Virus record (IMG/VR): IMGVR_UViG_3300020020_000113
Span: 1-34,436 of that record
DNA: 34,436 bases
From: a virus
Reading direction: 5' to 3' (one strand)
Shown: positions 8,432-33,362 of the stretch, one piece after another
How the letters are laid out: the number at the start of each line of letters is the position of its first letter
Position numbering within the stretch: position 1 is the first letter of the stretch
Translations under genes and position numbers: made by a program
The notes under the pieces: model-generated
Databases searched by the model: none
The model's input: only the letters and a program-made list of their open reading frames with translations
Told to the model about the DNA's origin: nothing

Positions 8432-10015
8432 ATGCAACCACCTGAAAATTTTCATAAGCTGAACGATAGATTTCAAGAAGCTCGCTATTATAAAGATAGG
8501 TGGCTCGCGCTCTATAAAAACTTGTACCTCTATGTAATTCCAGACCGTGACGCGTTCAACATAAAATTCAATTTCACCGATAGCGGAAAACCTGTCACGC
8601 AAATGATATGGGATAGTACTGCGATGATTGCCGCTTATCAACGAGCTAATGACTTGCACGGTTTGCTTATGCCAAAAGATAGGGTATGGGGAAAATATGT
8701 TTTAGACCCTCATCAACATGCCGAGCAAGATATACAAAAAGGCCAAATTGTTCTGGATAAAATTAATGACCGTATTATGTTCTATCTCAACGAATCAAAT
8801 ATTGCTCGTGTTGTTGGTTCTAGTAATCTTGATTTGGTGGGCGGCACGGGTGTTATTTGGGTGGAGTCACCAAGCGACGATGTACCTTTATATTTTCGTA
8901 GTATACCCGCTGTTGCTTTGTATATTGAGTATTGCAATGATGACCTAATTAGAAACTGTTGGTACGTTTCTAAAATGACAGGCCGTGCGGTGCTTGATAC
9001 GTTTCCTGATTACAACGGTACGCAATATAACAATCTTAAAGATAACCCGAATGATACATACTCAGTAAATTATGGACAGGTAGAAGTAGGGAAAGAGGAG
9101 TATTATATATATGCTGTACTTGATAACGATCCATTTACTGTTTTATGGGATAGGTATAGTGATTATCGCCAAATCATTGTTTACCGTGATAGGGTAAGAC
9201 CAGGCGAAGCGGAAGGTCGGGGCGTAGCCATTGACATGATGCCGACAATTATGGATTTAAACCGTATTGTTGAATATTCACGAAAGAACATGGCATTCAA
9301 AGCAAATCCACCAATGTTTTATGATGCGGGAAGCTATTTTAATCCGTATTCGATTCGGCAGTGGGCAGGTGCAATGATTGCGCGTCAGCCGAATGGCCGC
9401 AATCCTTTGGAAGCATTGCAAATGCCCGAATATCCTGATGTTATGCAGCATATAATTCATATGCAGGATACAATACAAAAGGCGTTTATGGTTGACCCCC
9501 TTGGAGAAATTCAAACACCGGTTAAGTCGGCCACAGAGGTATCGATTCGTGAAAACAGAGCGCAACGTACAGCAAGCACAGACATATCACGGTTGATAAA
9601 CGAATTGCCAAGGCAGATATTCGAAGTTTCGGCCAAAATTCTAAACGGACGAGGCTTATTATTAAAACCAAAAGAAGTGATACCAGGATTTGATCCACGA
9701 CAATTAAAGTTTGCGTTTCAATCACCATTGTACGATATCCAAAACCAGTCAGATTTAAATCATCTTATCACTGCTTTGCAGACTAAGCAGCAATTCTGGG
9801 GACAAAGCGCGCCTATGATTACCATGGATTTATTTGAGACAAATAGGTTTATCATGGACAAGCTTAACTTGCCCGCAAAACTATCGGCATCCGATGATCA
9901 GATGAAGAAAACACTTGCGGAAGGTGCTGCGCAACAACAAGCAGCAACTGGTGCGCAACCGTCAACAACTGCGGGCGCTGTACAGTTTCCTAAGGAGCAG
10001 GGTGTTACTATATGA
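8432..10015 (+). CDS. Portal (head-to-tail connecting) protein
   Basis: At 527 residues it has the size of podovirus portals (T7 gp8 is about 536) and the recognisable layout of the head-tail connector family: an N-terminal YKDRWLALYKNLYLYVIPDR block, a central VGSSNLDLVGGTGVIWVE, a clip-like segment with DMMPTIMDLNRIVEYSRKNM, then KSATEVSIRENRAQ and a Gln/Ala-rich low-complexity tail near residues 490-515. Twelve copies should form the ring at one capsid vertex, through which DNA is packaged by the terminase. AGAGG precedes the ATG. It overlaps the Bbp19-like gene by four bases. Confidence 0.93.
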   Translation: MQPPENFHKLNDRFQEARYYKDRWLALYKNLYLYVIPDRDAFNIKFNFTDSGKPVTQMIWDSTAMIAAYQRANDLHGLLMPKDRVWGKYVLDPHQHAEQDIQKGQIVLDKINDRIMFYLNESNIARVVGSSNLDLVGGTGVIWVESPSDDVPLYFRSIPAVALYIEYCNDDLIRNCWYVSKMTGRAVLDTFPDYNGTQYNNLKDNPNDTYSVNYGQVEVGKEEYYIYAVLDNDPFTVLWDRYSDYRQIIVYRDRVRPGEAEGRGVAIDMMPTIMDLNRIVEYSRKNMAFKANPPMFYDAGSYFNPYSIRQWAGAMIARQPNGRNPLEALQMPEYPDVMQHIIHMQDTIQKAFMVDPLGEIQTPVKSATEVSIRENRAQRTASTDISRLINELPRQIFEVSAKILNGRGLLLKPKEVIPGFDPRQLKFAFQSPLYDIQNQSDLNHLITALQTKQQFWGQSAPMITMDLFETNRFIMDKLNLPAKLSASDDQMKKTLAEGAAQQQAATGAQPSTTAGAVQFPKEQGVTI

Positions 10016-10278
10016 TACAGGAACTAATGGAAGCCAAATTAATATCACCTAAGGAATTCAAAATCTATCAGTTATTTACTAGTGATTTAGGTCGAGAATG
10101 TTTTACTACGATGACTGATGAATTATTTTGGGAAGAACCTGGTGAGGAAGCAATGACCGAAGGCGTGCTGGGATTCTACGATGGCAGACGTTCGGTATTG
10201 CGCGGTATTAAGTCAACAATTGAGAAGGTTCAAAACTTGATTCATAAACAAAATACAGCGAGTCAAGATGCCGTATAA
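10012..10278 (+). CDS. Bbp19-like phage protein
   Basis: The 88-residue protein begins MIQELMEAKLISPKEF and contains the stretch FYDGRRSVLRGIKSTIEK. A short protein with F-x-x-G-x-R-S-V and adjacent helix directly behind the portal gene is typical of the Bbp19 group named after Bordetella phage BPP-1. The role is not established; its constant link with the portal suggests assembly or a minor structural position. It is coupled to the portal by a four-base overlap. Confidence 0.65.
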   Translation: MIQELMEAKLISPKEFKIYQLFTSDLGRECFTTMTDELFWEEPGEEAMTEGVLGFYDGRRSVLRGIKSTIEKVQNLIHKQNTASQDAV

Positions 10279-10531
10279 TATGGCGGCAATAACTGAATTT
10301 GATAAAATAACGGGTATTGTTAAAGTTGAAGATTTTGAAATAAAAGATTGTCCATTTTGTGGTGCATTACCAATATTTATGTGTAGGGCGTATGACAGTA
10401 TTGGTGAGGATAACGACCAGATAAGCATGGGCTTCATATATTGTAGCGAATGTAATATAGGACAATCAGTAATTGAAGATGCGAAAATTTGTATAGAAAA
10501 ATGGAATAATAGGACTACAAACAATGTCTGA
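10268..10531 (+). CDS. Lar-like zinc protein, candidate restriction alleviation factor
   Basis: The 87-residue protein shows the pattern of the Lar family: KDCPFCGALP (Cys28 and Cys31), then YCSECNIGQ as the second Cys pair, and a final helix ending ICIEKWNNRT, where Lar proteins end in a conserved EAWNxR. Lar-family proteins help phages by reducing type I restriction of unmodified DNA; many members are untested. An ATG at 10280 is an alternative start. Both starts overlap or closely follow the upstream gene and neither has a good ribosome site, so translation may depend on coupling. It is not a structural gene and so is an accessory insertion between portal and scaffold. Confidence 0.65.
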   Translation: MPYNMAAITEFDKITGIVKVEDFEIKDCPFCGALPIFMCRAYDSIGEDNDQISMGFIYCSECNIGQSVIEDAKICIEKWNNRTTNNV

Positions 10532-10718
10532 ATTTAAAGATGGTGAGATTACTTTTACAATAGATTTTAAATTAATGAAATATCAGCTTGTAGAAAATGT
10601 AGAAGGGTTTAATGCTAAGTACAATAGTACTAAAAGTTATATGTCAAATGGTATGTTTCACACAAAAAACGAAGCAATAGATGCAATGATTAGGCAATTA
10701 GAGGAACTAAAAGAATGA
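10524..10718 (+). CDS. Small hypothetical protein, 64 aa
   Basis: The start overlaps the end of the Lar-like gene and the stop overlaps the scaffold start (ATGA). The product has a beta-like N-terminus (KDGEITFTIDFKLMKYQL) and a helical end (KNEAIDAMIRQLEELKE). No family is recognised. Its coupling on both sides supports it being translated together with the assembly genes. Confidence 0.65.
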   Translation: MSEFKDGEITFTIDFKLMKYQLVENVEGFNAKYNSTKSYMSNGMFHTKNEAIDAMIRQLEELKE

Positions 10719-11344
10719 CAGACGGAACACAAGACAAGTTATATGCAGGTAAGTTTAAAACAGTTGAAGAACTAGAGGCAGGATACAACAATGCTGCGAA
10801 AGTTTATCAAGAGAATGAAGATATCAAGAGCAAATATACTCAGGCAACAACGGTTCCTGATGACTATCAGGTTCCCGCAAACGTCTCACTGCACGATAAT
10901 GATGTTGCTCAGCTCAAGCAAGCAGCAAAAGAAAGTGGATTGAATCAAGCACAGTTTGAAAAATTAACATTGAAGCAAAATGATAGTGCACGTTCAAAGA
11001 TGGATGCGTTTGAGAACTCAAAAAAAGAGATTGGAGCAGATAACCTTAATTTAATGCAAGACTTTATCAGCAAAACATATCCTGAAAAAGCTGGTGAAGC
11101 ATTAATGAAAGAAGCCATCAAGAACAAAGAGGTGCGCGAGGCAATCATGGCTCAGCGGACAGCGGCTTTAAACTCAAGTACGCCTGGTGTTGGTCGAGTT
11201 AGTTCTAGTAATTATAACAATGTTACGCATCAAGACATTATAAAAGCTCGTGAAGTTATGACAAAATCCAGAGGTAAAGCTAGGGTTGAAGCACAGCGAC
11301 ATTATATTGCATTGTCAGCACAACTAGCTCATGCAGGTGAATAA
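10715..11344 (+). CDS. Capsid scaffolding / assembly protein
   Basis: The 209-residue protein is acidic in its N-terminal half and basic at its C-terminus, with no enzymatic motif. It opens LYAGKFKTVEELEAGYNNAA, followed by a PDDYQVPANVSL linker and a long helical region rich in Lys, Glu and Gln (residues 65-140), and ends in a basic helical segment (IKAREVMTKSRGKARVEAQ). The start GKFKSVEELExAY and this overall plan are characteristic of podovirus scaffolds, which guide shell formation and leave before packaging. The major capsid gene normally follows directly; here 1.85 kb intervenes. Confidence 0.85.
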   Translation: MTDGTQDKLYAGKFKTVEELEAGYNNAAKVYQENEDIKSKYTQATTVPDDYQVPANVSLHDNDVAQLKQAAKESGLNQAQFEKLTLKQNDSARSKMDAFENSKKEIGADNLNLMQDFISKTYPEKAGEALMKEAIKNKEVREAIMAQRTAALNSSTPGVGRVSSSNYNNVTHQDIIKAREVMTKSRGKARVEAQRHYIALSAQLAHAGE

Positions 11345-11607
11345 TGAGACCTGTTAATTATCCAAGAATTATCCAAATCATTCCATGTGAAAATATTTGG
11401 ATTGAACACAAAACTAAAGATGACCATTGGGCAGAAAAAGCAGTTGCTTTAGCGCTCATAGAAAAAAGAGACCGACAGACAGGAGGTATACATACGTTTA
11501 CTTGTTATATTGGTTTGCACGATGTTAACGAAAGCAATACACAAGGTGTGTTATTGCATAATTATCATTATATTTATTCAGTAACAAAGCCAGTATTTCA
11601 AGAATAA
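11344..11607 (+). CDS. Small hypothetical protein, 87 aa
   Basis: The start overlaps the scaffold stop (TAATG). The product has an aromatic, beta-rich look (IIQIIPCENIWIEHKTKDDH, HTFTCYIGLHDVNES, YHYIYSVTKP). No family is recognised. It is the first gene of the 1.85-kb insertion between scaffold and capsid and its stop codon lies inside the first of four phased GAATAAA repeats. Confidence 0.65.
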   Translation: MRPVNYPRIIQIIPCENIWIEHKTKDDHWAEKAVALALIEKRDRQTGGIHTFTCYIGLHDVNESNTQGVLLHNYHYIYSVTKPVFQE

Positions 11608-11640
11608 AGAAGAATAAATCACGAATAAATCGAGAATAAA
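11602..11640. repeat. Four phased GAATAAA repeats
   Basis: GAATAAA starts at 11602, 11612, 11623 and 11634, a spacing of 10, 11 and 11 bases, close to one helical turn each. They fill the 33-base gap before the next gene and replace a normal ribosome site. A protein binding array, or slippage products, are both possible. Confidence 0.6.
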
Positions 11641-11859
11641 ATGGATATGCAAGCACCAGTTACAGGCATTAAATCAAGATTCAAATTAAACTATCCTAGT
11701 TACAAGTTAGATATCAAGTTCGACGTCATAAATGCAATGTATTTATTTACTGTGTATAAAGGTAGCGAAAATTTAGGTGGTTTGACATTTATTCGCGAAA
11801 CCCCAATTGATGAAGTTTGGGGTAATCTCATTGAATGGATGCGGCATATAGTGAGGTAA
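11641..11859 (+). CDS. Small hypothetical protein, 72 aa
   Basis: The ATG directly follows the GAATAAA array, with no clear Shine-Dalgarno. The product contains a beta-like core (YKLDIKFDVINAMYLFTVYK, then NLGGLTFIRE) and ends with a helix (VWGNLIEWMRHIVR). No family is recognised. It belongs to the accessory stretch between scaffold and capsid. Confidence 0.6.
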   Translation: MDMQAPVTGIKSRFKLNYPSYKLDIKFDVINAMYLFTVYKGSENLGGLTFIRETPIDEVWGNLIEWMRHIVR

Positions 11860-12033
11860 ATGATGAATAACGTTATTTCGTTACCTCGAAAATTACCACA
11901 ATATACTTGTGGTGAATGTGAATCAGAGGTATTTATTTTATGCGAAGACGAAAGCGGTAAATTAGTGGCAGTTTGTTTTAATTGCCAATGTCCAACAGTA
12001 CAAATTGGATGTGGTTGTTTAGATATCAGCTGA
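11860..12033 (+). CDS. Small zinc-ribbon protein, 57 aa
   Basis: The ATG follows the previous TAA without a gap (TAAATGATG; a second ATG at 11863 is equally likely). The product has YTCGECESEVFIL near residue 17, then LVAVCFNCQCP and IGCGCLDIS: two Cys-x2-Cys pairs that form a classic zinc ribbon, plus extra Cys at the end. Short phage zinc ribbons are common and their targets unknown. The stop codon lies within a 16-bp palindrome at 12022-12037. Confidence 0.7.
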   Translation: MMNNVISLPRKLPQYTCGECESEVFILCEDESGKLVAVCFNCQCPTVQIGCGCLDIS

Positions 12034-12061
12034 TATCAAATGACATCAACTGATAATTGAT
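12022..12061. repeat. Four phased 10-bp repeats with a 16-bp palindrome
   Basis: GATATCAGCT, GATATCAAAT, GACATCAACT and GATAATTGAT follow each other in exact 10-base steps, and GATATCAG reappears at 12069. The first copy and the start of the second form the perfect palindrome GATATCAGCTGATATC (12022-12037). A TTATATA stretch follows, then CAGGAA and the next ATG. This looks like an operator or promoter region inserted into the late operon. Confidence 0.6.
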
Positions 12062-12088
12062 TTATATAGATATCAGGAATATAAAATT

Positions 12089-12397
12089 ATGAAAATAGAA
12101 GTTAGACATAATCGAGATACAATGCAGTATGAAGCAGATGCATTGTTAGTAAATAATATAAAGTTTCATACAGCATCGGAATCACTGGAAAATTTATTTA
12201 AAGAATTATTTAAAATAGCAGATAGTTTCAAACCTTGGTTGGAGATAAATAAAAACCAAGAGATATCAAAACAAATAAAAAAACCAGAGATTGGGTTGTT
12301 CGGTAATGAAGTACAAAATATAATTCACAGAGATATGATGAATACAATATATGAAAGATTATCGAGACTAGAATTATTGACAGGGATTAAAGCGTAG
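12089..12397 (+). CDS. Hypothetical protein, 102 aa
   Basis: CAGGAA precedes the ATG. The N-terminal half is a plausible small alpha/beta fold (KIEVRHNRDTMQYEADALLV, then a helix ENLFKELFKIADSFK), followed by a Lys-rich link and a C-terminal helix (MMNTIYERLSRLELLTG). No family is recognised. The phased repeats just upstream suggest it has its own regulation, unlike the coupled genes before it. Confidence 0.65.
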   Translation: MKIEVRHNRDTMQYEADALLVNNIKFHTASESLENLFKELFKIADSFKPWLEINKNQEISKQIKKPEIGLFGNEVQNIIHRDMMNTIYERLSRLELLTGIKA

Positions 12398-12399
12398 TT

Positions 12400-12570
12400 A
12401 TGAATTGGCTTAAACGAATGATTGAATACTGGCAAGACAAAAGACTTGCTGAAAGATGCGGATTGAAAATTGAAGATGTTTGTCATCATCAATATGAGAA
12501 AATTAAATTATTTGCAGACATTGATATTCAAAGATGCACGAAATGTAATTATAGAAAACCAAGATTATGA
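12400..12570 (+). CDS. Small zinc-binding-like protein, 56 aa
   Basis: A 56-codon frame begins at ATG 12400, three bases after the previous stop. After a basic helix (NWLKRMIEYWQDKRLAER) comes VCHHQYEKIK and, near the end, QRCTKCNYRKP: a Cys-His-His and a Cys-x2-Cys set in the same layout (CxH ... CxxC) as the genes at 7016 and 33533. These look like members of one loose phage family of one-zinc proteins. Function unknown. Confidence 0.6.
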   Translation: MNWLKRMIEYWQDKRLAERCGLKIEDVCHHQYEKIKLFADIDIQRCTKCNYRKPRL

Positions 12571-12738
12571 CAAGTGAGTCCTGAGCGGATATAAAACTTT
12601 TAAGCCCTGAGCTATATTATGAAAGTGCGAGACCTGGGCATGAGTTGCGCTGAAAACTTTCCTAACCTGAAATGGTTACACTTGTCGCCTATTATGACAA
12701 TCACGGCGTGTGGGAAACGCAGGGTATATTATTGACTT
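12571..12738. other. 168 bases without a clear gene, repeat-rich
   Basis: No convincing gene lies here. CCTGAGC occurs twice (12580 and 12606), and GAAAGT/ACTTTC and AAAACTTT elements recur, giving several possible weak hairpins. The base composition is more GC-rich than the flanks. A 38-codon frame (12619-12735) is present but has no ribosome site and no homologue that I recognise. It may be the 3' flank of the leftward gene that follows. Confidence 0.4.
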
Positions 12739-13047
12739 TTAACCCGACACTGGAAAGTCATTACCAGGTTTGTCAAGATGGTTCGAAGCCATCTGATTGT
12801 CATTTTCATAATCAAGCGTTAGAGCTTCTTGAAGCTCGATAGATAAAGGCGTCAAATCCCCTTCATCCATATGATAAGCAAGAGTACTAATAAAAAAATA
12901 AGCACGCTGCACTCTAGTTGTATCACGCGATTTTACTCCTTTTTCCATCATATCAAAAAACCTGCGAATATCTTTTAATTCGCGCAAAACATGCAACCGC
13001 ATTTTTGTAACATCTTTCATATTTGACAATATCAGACTTTGAGGCAT
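12739..13047 (-). CDS. Leftward hypothetical protein within the late operon (moron candidate)
   Basis: This 102-residue frame is the only leftward gene between 5.3 and 30.5 kb. The protein looks genuine: an N-terminal helical region (LRELKDIRRFFDMMEKGVKS, then VQRAYFFISTLAYHMDEGD) and an acidic C-terminus with ELQEALTLDYENDNQ. No rightward frame competes. Alternative starts lie at 13020 and 13002, and no clear Shine-Dalgarno marks any of them. Upstream on minus, TTGCCA-N17-TAATGT could serve as a weak promoter. Being opposed to all neighbours suggests an independently expressed cargo gene. No family is recognised. Confidence 0.5.
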   Translation of the reverse strand: MPQSLILSNMKDVTKMRLHVLRELKDIRRFFDMMEKGVKSRDTTRVQRAYFFISTLAYHMDEGDLTPLSIELQEALTLDYENDNQMASNHLDKPGNDFPVSG

Positions 13048-13132
13048 AAAATATAGACATTACAGAACGGAAGCCCGAATGGCAACCTTTCGTTTTGAAA
13101 TCAGTCTTAATATTGGCCGGAATACTCCGCAA

Positions 13133-13186
13133 CCCAATAGTTATGGATAGGCACACGCATAGCGTGTATTTATAAATACTATTGGG
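13133..13186. repeat. Nested inverted repeats in the capsid gene leader
   Basis: CCCAATAG (13133-13140) pairs with CTATTGGG (13179-13186); inside it ACACGC (13153-13158) pairs with GCGTGT (13162-13167) around a 3-base loop. The outer arm ends 10 bases before the capsid ATG and covers the GGGG that would serve as its ribosome site. It could be a translational control element or a processed mRNA end. The region 13048-13196 holds no gene. Confidence 0.55.
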
Positions 13187-13196
13187 GTTCGCAATC

Positions 13197-14081
13197 ATGG
13201 CCGATCAAATCGATCTGGCAACGGCGTCACAATTATTTGATACCGAAGTCACAATAAAATACCAAAATAGCCAGTATCTGGCAGACACTATTGAAGAACG
13301 TCACGGAACTACTGGTGAAGCAACCAATGTTCCTGTTTCTGATATTATCGAAATGCAATCACAGACCTTTGCGCCTGTAGATATCCCTATTACTCCAGTA
13401 AATCCCACAAACGTAATGATTGTGCCTTATAACTATGCGCTGAAAACTGTTATTGGCGGTGGTGAAAAGACATTATTTGCGTACGATAAAATCGTAGACC
13501 ATGCAAAATTACATGCATTGGCGGCAGCGCGTATGGTGGATTACATAAAAATTAATGCATTGTTTACCTCAGCAGGATTTAGCACAATATTTAGTGTGCC
13601 TGTTACTGTTGGTGTGAATACCGGTATGAATGAAGCAAAAATGGCTCAAGCATTATCTTACTTGGAAAACCAAGGTGTTAATGTCATGGAACATTCTTGC
13701 TCTCTATGGCTGCCTGCAATCACTAAACAATCAATGTTGAATGACGATCGAGTTGTAAATATATTTTACAATGACGTTCGACCTTTGGTTGATAATAAAT
13801 TGTCTAGTTACCTTGGTGTTGATATTAGAACCCTGGGCGCAAATGGTATCAATACAATCCCATTCACTAGTGCAGCAGGAATCGATACCTATCTAACTCC
13901 GCTTGTACACATGGATTCGATGGTGCAGATTTTTAACCGTGATGTTTCAACCTCGATTACCTGGGTACCGCAAAATGACCGTTGGGAATTATTGACTGTT
14001 ATAACATCCGGTGCAAATGTGATTCAGTACAACGGTATTGCATTAATTGAAACTAACAACCCATACGCTGCCAACGCATAA
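13197..14081 (+). CDS. Major capsid protein
   Basis: I set the start at ATG 13197, with GGGG about nine bases upstream; a TTG at 13182 in the same frame is less likely. The 294-residue product begins ADQIDLATASQLFDTEVTIK and has the spine-helix pattern expected of HK97-fold capsids (DHAKLHALAAARMVDYIKIN) followed by a beta-rich second half. Sequence style and position (after scaffold, before tail tubular genes) agree with the podovirus capsid group that includes BPP-1-like phages. It should form the icosahedral shell. Its leader carries a stable nested hairpin. Confidence 0.9.
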   Translation: MADQIDLATASQLFDTEVTIKYQNSQYLADTIEERHGTTGEATNVPVSDIIEMQSQTFAPVDIPITPVNPTNVMIVPYNYALKTVIGGGEKTLFAYDKIVDHAKLHALAAARMVDYIKINALFTSAGFSTIFSVPVTVGVNTGMNEAKMAQALSYLENQGVNVMEHSCSLWLPAITKQSMLNDDRVVNIFYNDVRPLVDNKLSSYLGVDIRTLGANGINTIPFTSAAGIDTYLTPLVHMDSMVQIFNRDVSTSITWVPQNDRWELLTVITSGANVIQYNGIALIETNNPYAANA

Positions 14082-14098: not shown

Positions 14099-15526
14099 AT
14101 GTCAAATTTTGAAACGCTGGCGCTTGTGACCGAAGGCAATACTAGTACTGCTCCAAATATTTTTGTAGCGAGTACGGTTGATGCATTGGCTACGATATTA
14201 GCAGCGGGATATCTTAATGATATTCAGAAAAAAGTTAAATCGAACGACATTATCTATGTTAATTACCTGGATGCAAGTGTATTTCCGCTTGATACAGGGG
14301 AATCAGCATTGAGAGGAACGTTTACAGTAAGTTATGATCCATCAGCAGAAAACTGGAATATGATTCAATCATCATCAACAGTCACTGGCATTGGTGCATA
14401 CGGATTGCGTTCAACCCGATATATAAATGCAGGCGGTTCAGCAACAACCACTATTACCGATTCTCAAATCAATCCAAATATGGTTGTATTAGCTGCGTGG
14501 CAAGCAAGTGCAAATGCAGTTTCAATCAATAAGGTTACTCCAGGTGTCGGTACATTGACTGTATTATCATCCGGTGATCCAGGCGCGTCAACATTAACTT
14601 ATCTTGCATTTACACCATCTGCTCAATTAGAGAGCATAGGCGTACATGCAGCTCGATATAGCAACGCTGGCGGCTCCGCTACAGTTACTATTACCGATGC
14701 GGCAATCACAGCGGCAATGATAGTTGATGCGAATATTGTTAGCTCAGCAAATGCAGTCATAATTCAAAAAGTAACTGCAACGGCTGGAGTATTAACAATA
14801 TTGTGCAGTAGTAATCCAGGTTTGTCCGTGTTTAGTTATGTAGCGACAGTTGCATCAACAGCATTAACTAACCTGGGATTATATGCGACCTCTTACTCTA
14901 ATGCGGGCGGTAGTGCAACAACTACTATTACGGATGCGAGCATAAGCGCGACAAGTGATGTTGTAGCTAACTGGGCGTCATCAGTAACCGCAGTAAATAT
15001 TCAAAAAGTGACAGCAAGTGCTAGCACATTGACTATCTTATCGAGTGCAGATCCTGGCGTTTCGGTACTTGATTACCAAGCAACCCCGCAAAATGAAACT
15101 ACTGATGCATCAAATTCGCTGATATCTGCTAATAATTTATCAGATGTTGCTAGCACAAGTACTTCATTAGCAAATCTTGGTGGATTGCCTTTAGCCGGCG
15201 GTCAAATGACTGGTTCAATTTTGCTAGACCGTGGTACCGCAACTAGTACAGCGGGTGCTGCAACTATCAATAAACAGTCTGGTGTTATTACAACCGAGGC
15301 ATTAACCACGGCAGCGGCCGCAGCGTATGCGTTTACCTTAACTAACTCAAGAATCGCCTCAACTTCGATTATTGTATTAACGTTGATGGGCGGAACAAAT
15401 ACAACGCGCGGTATTGAACTTCGAGCAATCCCAGGCTCAGGTTCAGCAACGCTATCACTGTATAATAACAATGTTGCCGGTACAGCTTTAAACGGTACAT
15501 TGATATTTGGGTTTGAAGTAATCTAA
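14099..15526 (+). CDS. Capsid decoration / head-fibre candidate with three tandem repeats
   Basis: The 475-residue protein follows the capsid gene with AAGGAG upstream. Residues 1-100 form a globular start. Three copies of a 79-residue unit follow, each marked by NAGGSAT at residues 110, 189 and 268 and by V-x-I-x-K-V-T and LTxLSSxDPG-like segments, ending about residue 335. Then come NNLSDVASTSTSLANLGG, a fibre-like linker, and a beta-rich C-terminal domain ending NGTLIFGFEVI. Bead-like repeats plus a terminal beta domain suggest a fibre projecting from the capsid. It is Ala/Ser/Thr rich. A tail-fibre function is the main alternative. A strong terminator follows. Confidence 0.6.
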   Translation: MSNFETLALVTEGNTSTAPNIFVASTVDALATILAAGYLNDIQKKVKSNDIIYVNYLDASVFPLDTGESALRGTFTVSYDPSAENWNMIQSSSTVTGIGAYGLRSTRYINAGGSATTTITDSQINPNMVVLAAWQASANAVSINKVTPGVGTLTVLSSGDPGASTLTYLAFTPSAQLESIGVHAARYSNAGGSATVTITDAAITAAMIVDANIVSSANAVIIQKVTATAGVLTILCSSNPGLSVFSYVATVASTALTNLGLYATSYSNAGGSATTTITDASISATSDVVANWASSVTAVNIQKVTASASTLTILSSADPGVSVLDYQATPQNETTDASNSLISANNLSDVASTSTSLANLGGLPLAGGQMTGSILLDRGTATSTAGAATINKQSGVITTEALTTAAAAAYAFTLTNSRIASTSIIVLTLMGGTNTTRGIELRAIPGSGSATLSLYNNNVAGTALNGTLIFGFEVI

Positions 15527-27152: not shown

Positions 27153-28643
27153 ATGAGTCTATTACAAGAAGCCAAAGCCTTGCGTGATAAGGCTTTGGGC
27201 GCTTATCACAAGCAATCATTAAGTACCTATGAATTAACGCGTGATGATTTAAACAATTTACACGTTAATTGGGGTGATGGTTATAGCGTGCGCATTCCGG
27301 TTATTAATTTTAGACCATATCAGCGTGAAGTTAGAGACGTTTTGCTCAATAAGGAATCTAAGAGAATATTAGCGGAATGGCCTAGGCGTGCGGGTAAAGA
27401 GGTTACAACCTGGAATCTAGTTTTAGATTTTGCGATTAGTGACCCAGGCATGTATTTGATGGTTTACCCTACAAACGTTCGTGCTCGCAAAATTTTGTGG
27501 GAAGGGGCAATGTTAGATTTGGGGACAGGTAAAAGTATCAAGTTTTTAGATATGATTCCTAAACGCCTTATGGCTCGCAAATCTAATGATGCAGACATGA
27601 CGATTCATTTAACCAACGGCAGCTTAATTTGGGTTGTTGGTTGTGATATTGACCCCGAAAAGCTTCGTGGTACTAACCCGCGTGGCATCGTTTATTGTGA
27701 GCTGGCATTCTCCGACCCCAAAGTTCTTTATTCCATGATGCCGGTGCTTAGGCAGAATGGCGGTTGGTTATTTGGACAATCCACATACAACGGTATGAAT
27801 CATTTTTATTGGATGTTGAAAAAGAACCAAGACGACCCGCTTTGGTTTTGCCGCGAGGAAAGTATTAATACACTGGTTGATGAAGAAGGTCAGCCATACA
27901 TAACCGATGCGGATGTTGACGAGGATAGGCGTGCCGGAATGCCTGAATACCTCATTCAACAAGAGTATTACGGCAATGTACAGGTAAATGAGGAAACCAA
28001 ATATTTTGCGATTGCTATTAATGCCGTTCATGATTCAGAAAGAATTATTAAAGGTTATTATTTGCCAAATAAAGCAGCATATGCTTTTTATGATATTGGT
28101 GTATCAGATTGCACGTCAATAACTATTGCGCAATTTGAATCAAGAAACGGAAAGCTTTGGCCTACAGTAATTGGCTATATTGAAAATAATAACCGCGCTC
28201 TTGCTTTTTATGTTGGGGAATTAAAGGCATTTTGTAATGCTAGAAATCTAGTATTGAAAGCGCATTATGTGCCGCATGACGGAGCAAATAGAAATTTTGG
28301 TGATGGTTTAAAAACTACTCAGGATTATTTACAGGAAATGGGCGAGATGGCTTATATAGTGAAGCGGCCAAGTACTCATAAAACAGCAATTGAAACTATA
28401 CGCCAAAAACTTTATATGACAACTTTCAATGAAGAAAATACTCAACGATTGATTGATTGTATTAGTAACTATGAAAAGGAATTTGATGTTAAAATGGGTA
28501 AATTTAAAGACCATCCGAAACACGACTGGTCAAGCCATGGGGTTAAAAGTTATCAAACTTTAGCGCTGGCGTTAGAGAGTGAATTGATTAATGAAATATC
28601 GTATGATGTTATTTATATAGACCAAAATAAGGGTATGTCATGA
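27153..28643 (+). CDS. terL: Terminase large subunit (packaging ATPase/nuclease)
   Basis: The 496-residue protein has both terminase domains. The ATPase shows a Walker A of the terminase type, WPRRAGKE (residues 76-83), and Walker B with acidic residue in IVYCE (179-183). The nuclease shows FYDIGVSD (Asp314), HDGANRNFGDG (Asp376) and, near the end, KHDWSSHGVKSYQTLAL (Asp458), the usual place for the third metal ligand, though a more common D in GxDAxR is Lys here. It drives DNA into the capsid through the portal and cuts the concatemer. It is unusual in lying after the fibre gene and far from its likely small subunit (5414). Confidence 0.92.
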   Translation: MSLLQEAKALRDKALGAYHKQSLSTYELTRDDLNNLHVNWGDGYSVRIPVINFRPYQREVRDVLLNKESKRILAEWPRRAGKEVTTWNLVLDFAISDPGMYLMVYPTNVRARKILWEGAMLDLGTGKSIKFLDMIPKRLMARKSNDADMTIHLTNGSLIWVVGCDIDPEKLRGTNPRGIVYCELAFSDPKVLYSMMPVLRQNGGWLFGQSTYNGMNHFYWMLKKNQDDPLWFCREESINTLVDEEGQPYITDADVDEDRRAGMPEYLIQQEYYGNVQVNEETKYFAIAINAVHDSERIIKGYYLPNKAAYAFYDIGVSDCTSITIAQFESRNGKLWPTVIGYIENNNRALAFYVGELKAFCNARNLVLKAHYVPHDGANRNFGDGLKTTQDYLQEMGEMAYIVKRPSTHKTAIETIRQKLYMTTFNEENTQRLIDCISNYEKEFDVKMGKFKDHPKHDWSSHGVKSYQTLALALESELINEISYDVIYIDQNKGMS

Positions 28644-33077: not shown

Positions 33078-33362
33078 ATGGGAACGATGAATAAAAACAC
33101 AGAAAATAATGTTAAGGATTATCCTACTAAAATTGATACGCGAGTAGCATTACTTGAGATGTCTATATCGCATATTAATGAAACCTTGATCAGAATAGAA
33201 AAAAGGTTTGATAAAATTGATGATAGGTTCGATAAAATTGACAACAAAATTGATAAAATTGATTCAAAAATTGATTCCAGGTTTTTTTGGTTGTTATCAT
33301 TTCAAATAGGTGGCTTTGTTGGATTGCTTGGGGTTATTGGCCGTGTAGCGCATTGGATATAA
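33078..33362 (+). CDS. Coiled-coil protein with C-terminal membrane segment (holin candidate)
   Basis: AAGGA precedes the ATG. The 94-residue protein has an N-terminal polar part, a coiled coil built from seven-residue units (RFDKIDD-RFDKIDN-KIDKIDS-KIDSRF) near residues 44-70, and a C-terminal membrane segment (LLSFQIGGFVGLLGVIG) ending RVAHWI. This plan resembles XhlA-type and related phage membrane proteins that assist or act as holins. No other holin is seen, and the endolysin at 2828 needs one, but that gene lies 3.8 kb away across the junction. A virion-linked or exclusion membrane protein is an alternative. Confidence 0.6.
   Translation: MGTMNKNTENNVKDYPTKIDTRVALLEMSISHINETLIRIEKRFDKIDDRFDKIDNKIDKIDSKIDSRFFWLLSFQIGGFVGLLGVIGRVAHWI

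Follow-up and report, generated by a model that had tools for sequence, protein, structure and literature searches.

In tailed phages, the amount of major capsid protein (MCP) and the timing of its synthesis are known mainly as a matter of transcription timing. In P22, autoregulation of the scaffolding protein by assembly state ties the synthesis of a podovirus head protein post-transcriptionally to assembly. The Mu-gpT-DE RNA motif is a structured leader found before a phage major head gene, near the Shine-Dalgarno sequence, and in the leader of the MS2 maturation gene the order of folding may open a short window for translation. Translational riboswitches combine competing helices and conserved internal loops in a 5' leader; a glutamine riboswitch accompanies a tmRNA gene in a marine myophage, in a report that terms riboswitches rare in phages (PMC9004378). 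Here, we describe the region upstream of the MCP gene in the virus record IMGVR_UViG_3300020020_000113, which was analysed whole (34,436 bases, hereafter the window). Judging from its sequence, this region is a structured cis-regulatory RNA leader, as it lies 5' of one gene, on the same strand, and carries compensatory changes.

The MCP leader has the competing helices, the conserved internal loops and the 5' position in common with translational riboswitches. Unlike the known ones, however, its loop drifts within the clade, its target is a capsid gene, and it belongs to no Rfam family. Mu-gpT-DE occurs in a different phage group. P22 regulates its scaffold, whereas the window phage would regulate its MCP; here the RNA site is visible, and the link to assembly is conjectural. 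MS2 is an RNA phage, and its leader is without twin loops.

Hairpins of the capsid gene leader

A sigma70-like promoter precedes a leader of ~145 nucleotides (nt), in which two tandem hairpins, M1 and M2, and an alternative hairpin, S2:S3, can be drawn upstream of the MCP start codon. The features of this region are the following:

13023–13052, forward strand: sigma70-like MCP promoter (TTGACA, 18 nt, TAAAAT; 11/12 matches)
13059–13108, forward strand: hairpin M1, with closing pair G13073-C13087 and an internal loop formed by CC (13074–13075) and GCAAC (13082–13086)
13111–13139, forward strand: hairpin M2, composed of S1 (13111–13116, TATTGG), a loop formed by CC (13117–13118) and GCAAC (13129–13133), and S2 (13134–13139, CCAATA)
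13134–13187, forward strand: alternative hairpin S2:S3, an inverted repeat in which 13134–13141 pairs with 13178–13185 (ACTATTGG) and which covers the Shine-Dalgarno GGGG at 13184–13187
13197–14081, forward strand: MCP gene, with its ATG at 13197 (PF19821, E 9e-19; phrog_3437, E 8e-18)

The relatives used for comparison comprise 61 MCP homologues in IMG/VR (79–98% identity), two in contigs of metagenome-assembled genomes (MAGs; 84% and 75% identity) and more from further searches, the most distant being 51% identical to the query of its own search. In the upstream alignment, the last ~175 nt before the MCP start keep the same layout with or without additional genes in front of them. The promoter score was at least 9 in 36 of 38 distinct leaders, compared with 19% of random windows, and at least 10 in 23 of the 38, compared with 2%; scores were low in two loci, L012 and L014. 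Given this promoter, the leader is presumably transcribed as RNA.

M1 and M2 share one layout, consisting of a G-C-closed outer helix, a 5' CC, an inner stem and a 3' RYAAC, and in the window the inner stem of M1 is a single pair in the consensus register. The window leader has a predicted minimum free energy of -51.2 (z -4.6). Two plain MAFFT alignments were used, A5 (42 sequences) and A1 (43 sequences), and the 24-pair structure of M1 and M2 was tested against a control in which the partner strand was slid. In A5, 88.2% of cells were paired, against 28–45% when slid, and 20 of the 24 pairs had changed on both sides. A covariance model, R1, was built from A5 and this structure. After realignment of 62 distinct leaders, 90.2% of cells were paired (30–46% slid), 21 of 24 pairs had changed on both sides, and the outer helix of M2 was 99.2% paired, with double changes; 12 distinct leaders found later, none of them used for R1, also gave 90.2%. 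These realigned sets (62 and 12) are fitted to the structure and hence lean towards it. The loops of M1 and M2 also change together within a phage, as seen in ATAAC with ATAAC, CATAC with CATAC and, on the 5' side, CT with CT: over 22 distinct combinations, the similarity was 242 against a permuted mean of 209.6, a value reached in 0 of 5000 permutations.

S2 can pair with either of two complementary strands, S1 or S3, the latter being the Shine-Dalgarno region; M2 and S2:S3 are therefore mutually exclusive. RNAalifold applied to A1 returned, unprompted, the S2:S3 hairpin as the consensus. On the 43 leaders of A1, this hairpin had 94.5% of its cells paired (28–53% slid) and a covariation score of 0.457 (at most 0.183 slid). 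Five positions require one S2 letter to fit S1 and S3 alike, and at each of them 40–43 of the 43 sequences form two standard pairs; in L110 and L146 all three strands are altered with the pairing still intact. In M1/M2 there are 109 G-U against 25 A-C combinations, and in S2:S3 64 against 4; this excess points to an RNA of the MCP sense strand.

Partition functions calculated for 70 of 75 leaders favoured S2:S3 over M2 in 63 of the 70, with a median difference of 7.2 kcal/mol. Forcing M2 gave a median predicted probability of 0.49 that S3 is unpaired, compared with 0.007 for the free ensemble. In 58 of the 70 leaders, the distance from the 3' end of S3 to the start codon is 10–13 nt. As modelled, the M2/S2:S3 design fits the platform of a translational riboswitch, in which a second structure masks the ribosome site and cannot coexist with the first. 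For the window alone, the predicted minimum-energy fold has the released S1 paired with the opening codons of the MCP gene as well.

Of the 76 leaders searched, 75 carry an R1 match immediately before the MCP gene, L001 being the sole exception; R1 matches all 62 distinct leaders, 42 of which had built it, and all 13 leaders found later (E up to 0.0035), each just upstream of the MCP gene. The match in the window spans 13059–13142 (56.9 bits). Six loci (L002, L036, L053, L055, L056 and L059) start too near the MCP gene or inside it and were left out of the leader search. In 20 full records, which include relatives, the window and one MAG, there is one strong match each (E 1e-8 or better), and two of the 20 carry a second, weak one (E 0.13 and 0.47). 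Upstream of the MCP genes of MEP301, HTVC010P, HTVC024P and two Vibrio phages R1 gave no match; HTVC010P has a match with E 0.54 elsewhere, and the other four have none at all. Motif-like pieces without an R1 score are visible by eye in MEP301. Across 369 genomes of the class of G020, R1 matched only the phage contig of G020 itself and a stretch of G118 (25.6 bits, E 0.02), which lies inside an S13-like coding region and was set aside as a chance match. A DNA pattern of M2 and S3 retrieved 17 stretches from IMG/VR, five of them upstream of an MCP relative, including L142, which was new to the protein searches; the other 12 lie elsewhere, lack the leader context and are, by a hand estimate, about what chance would give.

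Rfam 15 families yielded no match at the gathering threshold across nine loci, the best below-threshold matches in the window being Yar_1 (15.3 of 50 bits) and Pistol (15.2 of 34.5 bits). A literature search covering titles and abstract openings returned none that describes a structured MCP-gene leader for such phages. As far as these searches go, it belongs to a known kind of RNA, that of cis-regulatory leaders, and forms a new family within it, marked by twin loops and a target gene that is unusual.

A putative switch for capsid synthesis

We consider it probable, with room for doubt, that the MCP leader acts as a translational switch for capsid synthesis, the MCP being expressed from its own sigma70-like promoter. 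M1 and M2 would fold first during transcription; while M2 holds, S3 would be free and the MCP translated, and a shift of S2 to S3, into the state favoured thermodynamically, would bury the ribosome site. A partner binding the twin loops would steady M2, and capsid synthesis would stay on, since by thermodynamic linkage binding to M2 would activate MCP translation. Because the twin loops are of one kind and change together, they would be recognized by a single common partner co-evolving with the phage, and such co-evolution makes a phage protein more likely than a metabolite. The preferred candidate would be a phage-encoded head-assembly protein, with the scaffold or the MCP as the natural choices. 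That capsid synthesis is gated by a twin-site RNA switch sensing a head-assembly protein, either the scaffold or unassembled capsid protein, is a more tentative proposal, which we hold to be possible rather than probable.

Several observations weigh against these proposals. S3 is less variable than S2 and often pairs by G-U. The double-change pairs of S2:S3 were matched by 31 of 500 shuffles and its pair types by 440 of 500, so that two of five measures are not clearly above shuffling, because S3 varies little and uses G-U. The refined energy calculation left out five of the 75 leaders under the rules of the script, and seven of the 70 favour M2; in an earlier, cruder run, only 40 of 56 leaders favoured S2:S3, with hardly any difference in Shine-Dalgarno accessibility (4 against 3 of 10 unpaired). 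The test of concerted loop change counts distinct combinations, with shared ancestry included. The 5' arm of M1 is degenerate in L012 and L014, as is the M1 loop in the most distant relatives (L289–L292), so the two sites are not essential everywhere; in the latter, M2 and S3 are nearly perfect, which suggests that M2 plus S3 may be the core of the switch. L001, with a 98% identical MCP, has no R1 match and lacks M1. At positions 1–382 of L001, the 3' end of a bacterial-looking tmRNA is fused to the phage leader midway through M2; ARAGORN makes no call there, perhaps because the 5' end is missing, and the junction is either a chimeric assembly or an integration junction.

The same pairing could be read in other ways. 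A ligand-free folding timer, in which M2 forms first and the later S2:S3 limits MCP translation to fresh transcripts, in the manner of the MS2 maturation-gene leader, would leave the loops a role in stability only. The greater stability of S2:S3 in 63 of 70 leaders suits such a timer, as does the fact that M2 of the window is complete at 13139, ~40–45 nt before S3 (13178–13185) is made; a pure timer, however, needs neither the conservation of two internal loops nor their likeness and co-change, and we regard it as unlikely. Less likely still is a small-molecule riboswitch, with the twin loops as tandem aptamers for a metabolite that reports host state. Sensor hairpins with a mutually exclusive platform at the Shine-Dalgarno sequence do constitute the architecture of a translational riboswitch, and phage riboswitches exist, though rare according to the myophage report (PMC9004378). 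The element, on the other hand, is seen upstream of one phage gene only. Metabolite aptamer cores are usually near invariant, whereas the loop described here drifts between subclades (RYAAC, CAUAC, UACC, AYUAC). If the pairing were instead a DNA palindrome serving as an operator, origin or recombination site, the tmRNA-leader join within M2 of L001 would be what an integration site might give. The excess of G-U wobbles on the MCP sense strand, the asymmetric loops, the fixed place between promoter and start codon and the Shine-Dalgarno sequence within S3 all speak for RNA, and make a DNA element highly improbable.

Accessory genes between scaffold and capsid

Upstream of the promoter, the scaffold-like and MCP genes of the window are separated by small genes, referred to here as cargo. 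The features of this region and of its left flank are listed below:

8432–10015: podovirus-type portal gene (PF12236)
10268–10531, forward strand: restriction alleviation gene of the Lar type, outside the interval and flanked by portal and scaffold
10715–11344, forward strand: scaffold-like gene, between portal and MCP, forming the left border of the accessory slot
11344–11607, forward strand: cargo gene A87, whose start overlaps the scaffold stop by 1 nt
11598–11640: phased ~11-nt repeat, AAGAATAAA-like, between A87 and B72 (Tandem Repeats Finder (TRF) score 58)
11641–11859, forward strand: cargo gene B72, the only recurrent cargo family
11860–12033, forward strand: cargo gene C57, Cys-rich
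12022–12076: GATATC-rich repeat/palindrome between C57 and D102 (TRF score 47 for 12022–12055)
12089–12397, forward strand: cargo gene D102
12400–12570, forward strand: cargo gene E56, a CxxC-type small protein
12739–13020, reverse strand: opposing cargo gene Rev102 (open reading frame listed to 13047, probable start 13020)

An earlier note on this DNA had described a 1.85 kb insertion here, with five small rightward genes, an opposing gene, two arrays of phased repeats and a repeat-rich gap, at a place where the capsid gene normally follows the scaffold closely. The interval exists, with 1,852 nt between the scaffold-like stop at 11344 and the MCP ATG at 13197, and the five rightward reading frames are all present at the coordinates listed above. 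The opposing gene is genuine, since L009, the one contig with a homologue among the fetched loci, carries it (76% identity) at the corresponding position with unchanged orientation. Both repeat arrays exist and exceed chance, though only modestly, the score of 58 being reached by two of 200 interval shuffles and that of 47 by nine of 200. The repeat-rich gap (13048–13196) is likewise present but does not consist of random repeats: it is occupied by the conserved promoter and the structured RNA leader, and the conserved putative RNA switch at 13052–13196, the most striking part of the interval, had been overlooked.

The scaffold-MCP gap was measured in the 48 records that contain both genes and the MCP start, namely 47 of the 61 IMG/VR loci and the window, several of them near-identical contigs. 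In 24 of these the gap is 170–206 nt, essentially promoter plus leader, which bears out the expectation that the capsid gene normally lies close behind the scaffold; in the other 24 it is 250–3,457 nt. Among relatives whose MCPs are 79–98% identical, the gap thus varies 20-fold, and the larger gaps inspected hold different small genes from one phage to another. This comparison for gene turnover had been proposed in the earlier note. Rather than a core module conserved in order, B72 alone recurs, in 13 of 61 loci and between scaffold and MCP. The interval is an accessory-gene slot, its flanks conserved and its genes variable. The scaffold stop TGA falls within the -35 box of 18 of 38 distinct leaders, and by the promoter scoring rule the distance from -35 to ATG is 151–210 nt across the 48 records; cargo therefore sits downstream of the scaffold stop and upstream of the promoter, and none was found inside the promoter-leader unit in these records.

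For A87, neither a homologue among the fetched loci nor a family below E 0.04 was found, and D102 and E56 also have no homologue among these loci. C57 has one in L063 only, and a 42 nt intergenic stretch of L014 matches the GATATC-rich repeat region with 83% identity. In a ten-member alignment, the B72 family is 23–37% identical to the window protein, for which an alpha-beta3-alpha fold is predicted (AlphaFold predicted local distance difference test (pLDDT) of 88, a confident model). A structure search with B72 gave no PDB match below E 0.03 (best 0.033), and its best viral structure match is an uncharacterised protein (1.9e-6), which gives no function. The fold prediction for Rev102, made from two sequences, has a pLDDT of 60. 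In the non-coding stretch 12568–12680, three or four CCTGRGC-like segments occur with a spacing of 26–34 nt. A candidate Pistol ribozyme at 12578–12626 (15.2 of 34.5 bits, E 4) lies in a stretch with three look-alike CCTGRGC segments, is not conserved in the fetched loci and was rejected as a chance match. In the pelagiphages L123 (HTVC010P), L124 (HTVC024P) and perhaps L122 (EXVC031P), the capsid assembly and MCP genes are separated by an additional small gene, so that gene uptake at the scaffold-MCP site may extend to distant relatives.

The earlier note took the interval for a hotspot of defence or counter-defence cargo. Its turnover is borne out, and a role in defence or counter-defence is weakly supported. 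None of the six cargo genes of the window matched PADLOC below E 0.001, the best being D102 (0.0047). Of counter-defence genes in the window, the Lar-type gene lies nearest; its product is a member of the Lar restriction alleviation proteins and scores above curated cut-offs (PF14354, 36.4 against 28.6 bits, E 6e-9; TIGR03655, 41.1 against 39.6 bits, E 2e-10); this gene has no relation to the leader and is not part of the interval. Elsewhere, the slot of L022 holds a DNA methyltransferase (phrog_757, E 1.5e-56), and that of L024 a SASA esterase, which is not a defence gene, together with a ribbon-helix-helix-like gene scoring below its cut-off. One could hold that such cargo is the point of the interval and the leader incidental, in view of the gene turnover, the adjoining Lar gene and the methyltransferase of L022. 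Yet the window's own cargo is without a significant family match, and 24 of the 48 records are too tight for cargo and keep the leader nonetheless, so that we find this explanation quite improbable.

Flanking genes and the phage clade

Homologues of the scaffold-like gene, 35–76% identical, occupy the same position in relatives. The name scaffold is based on position, because no significant family match was obtained (best phrog_458, E 0.008); the protein did not align with the capsid assembly protein of MEP301 and, used as a query, retrieved a single extra locus, L063. A terminase-like gene is located at 27153–28643. The clade is represented here almost solely by metagenomes: a direct MCP search of a phage collection gave only MEP301 (24.6% identity), whose MCP served as a bridge to Vibrio phages and pelagiphages. 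The gene after the MCP gene (14099–15526) encodes about three similar segments of ~75 amino acids, and in many relatives the first ~95 amino acids match and the remainder does not; its product may be a modular protein, either a head decoration or a fibre. At 33078–33362, a small protein has a KIDDRFDKIDNKIDKIDSK heptad-like repeat, with tandem repeats in the DNA.

The leader is a compact, conserved RNA with the design of a switch and two repeated recognition loops, which makes both its binder and its effect on translation directly testable. An MCP gene with its own promoter and leader explains how accessory genes land between scaffold and capsid with the operon left unbroken. If the proposed sensing of head assembly is true, MCP translation would follow the state of head assembly across a widespread podovirus clade.

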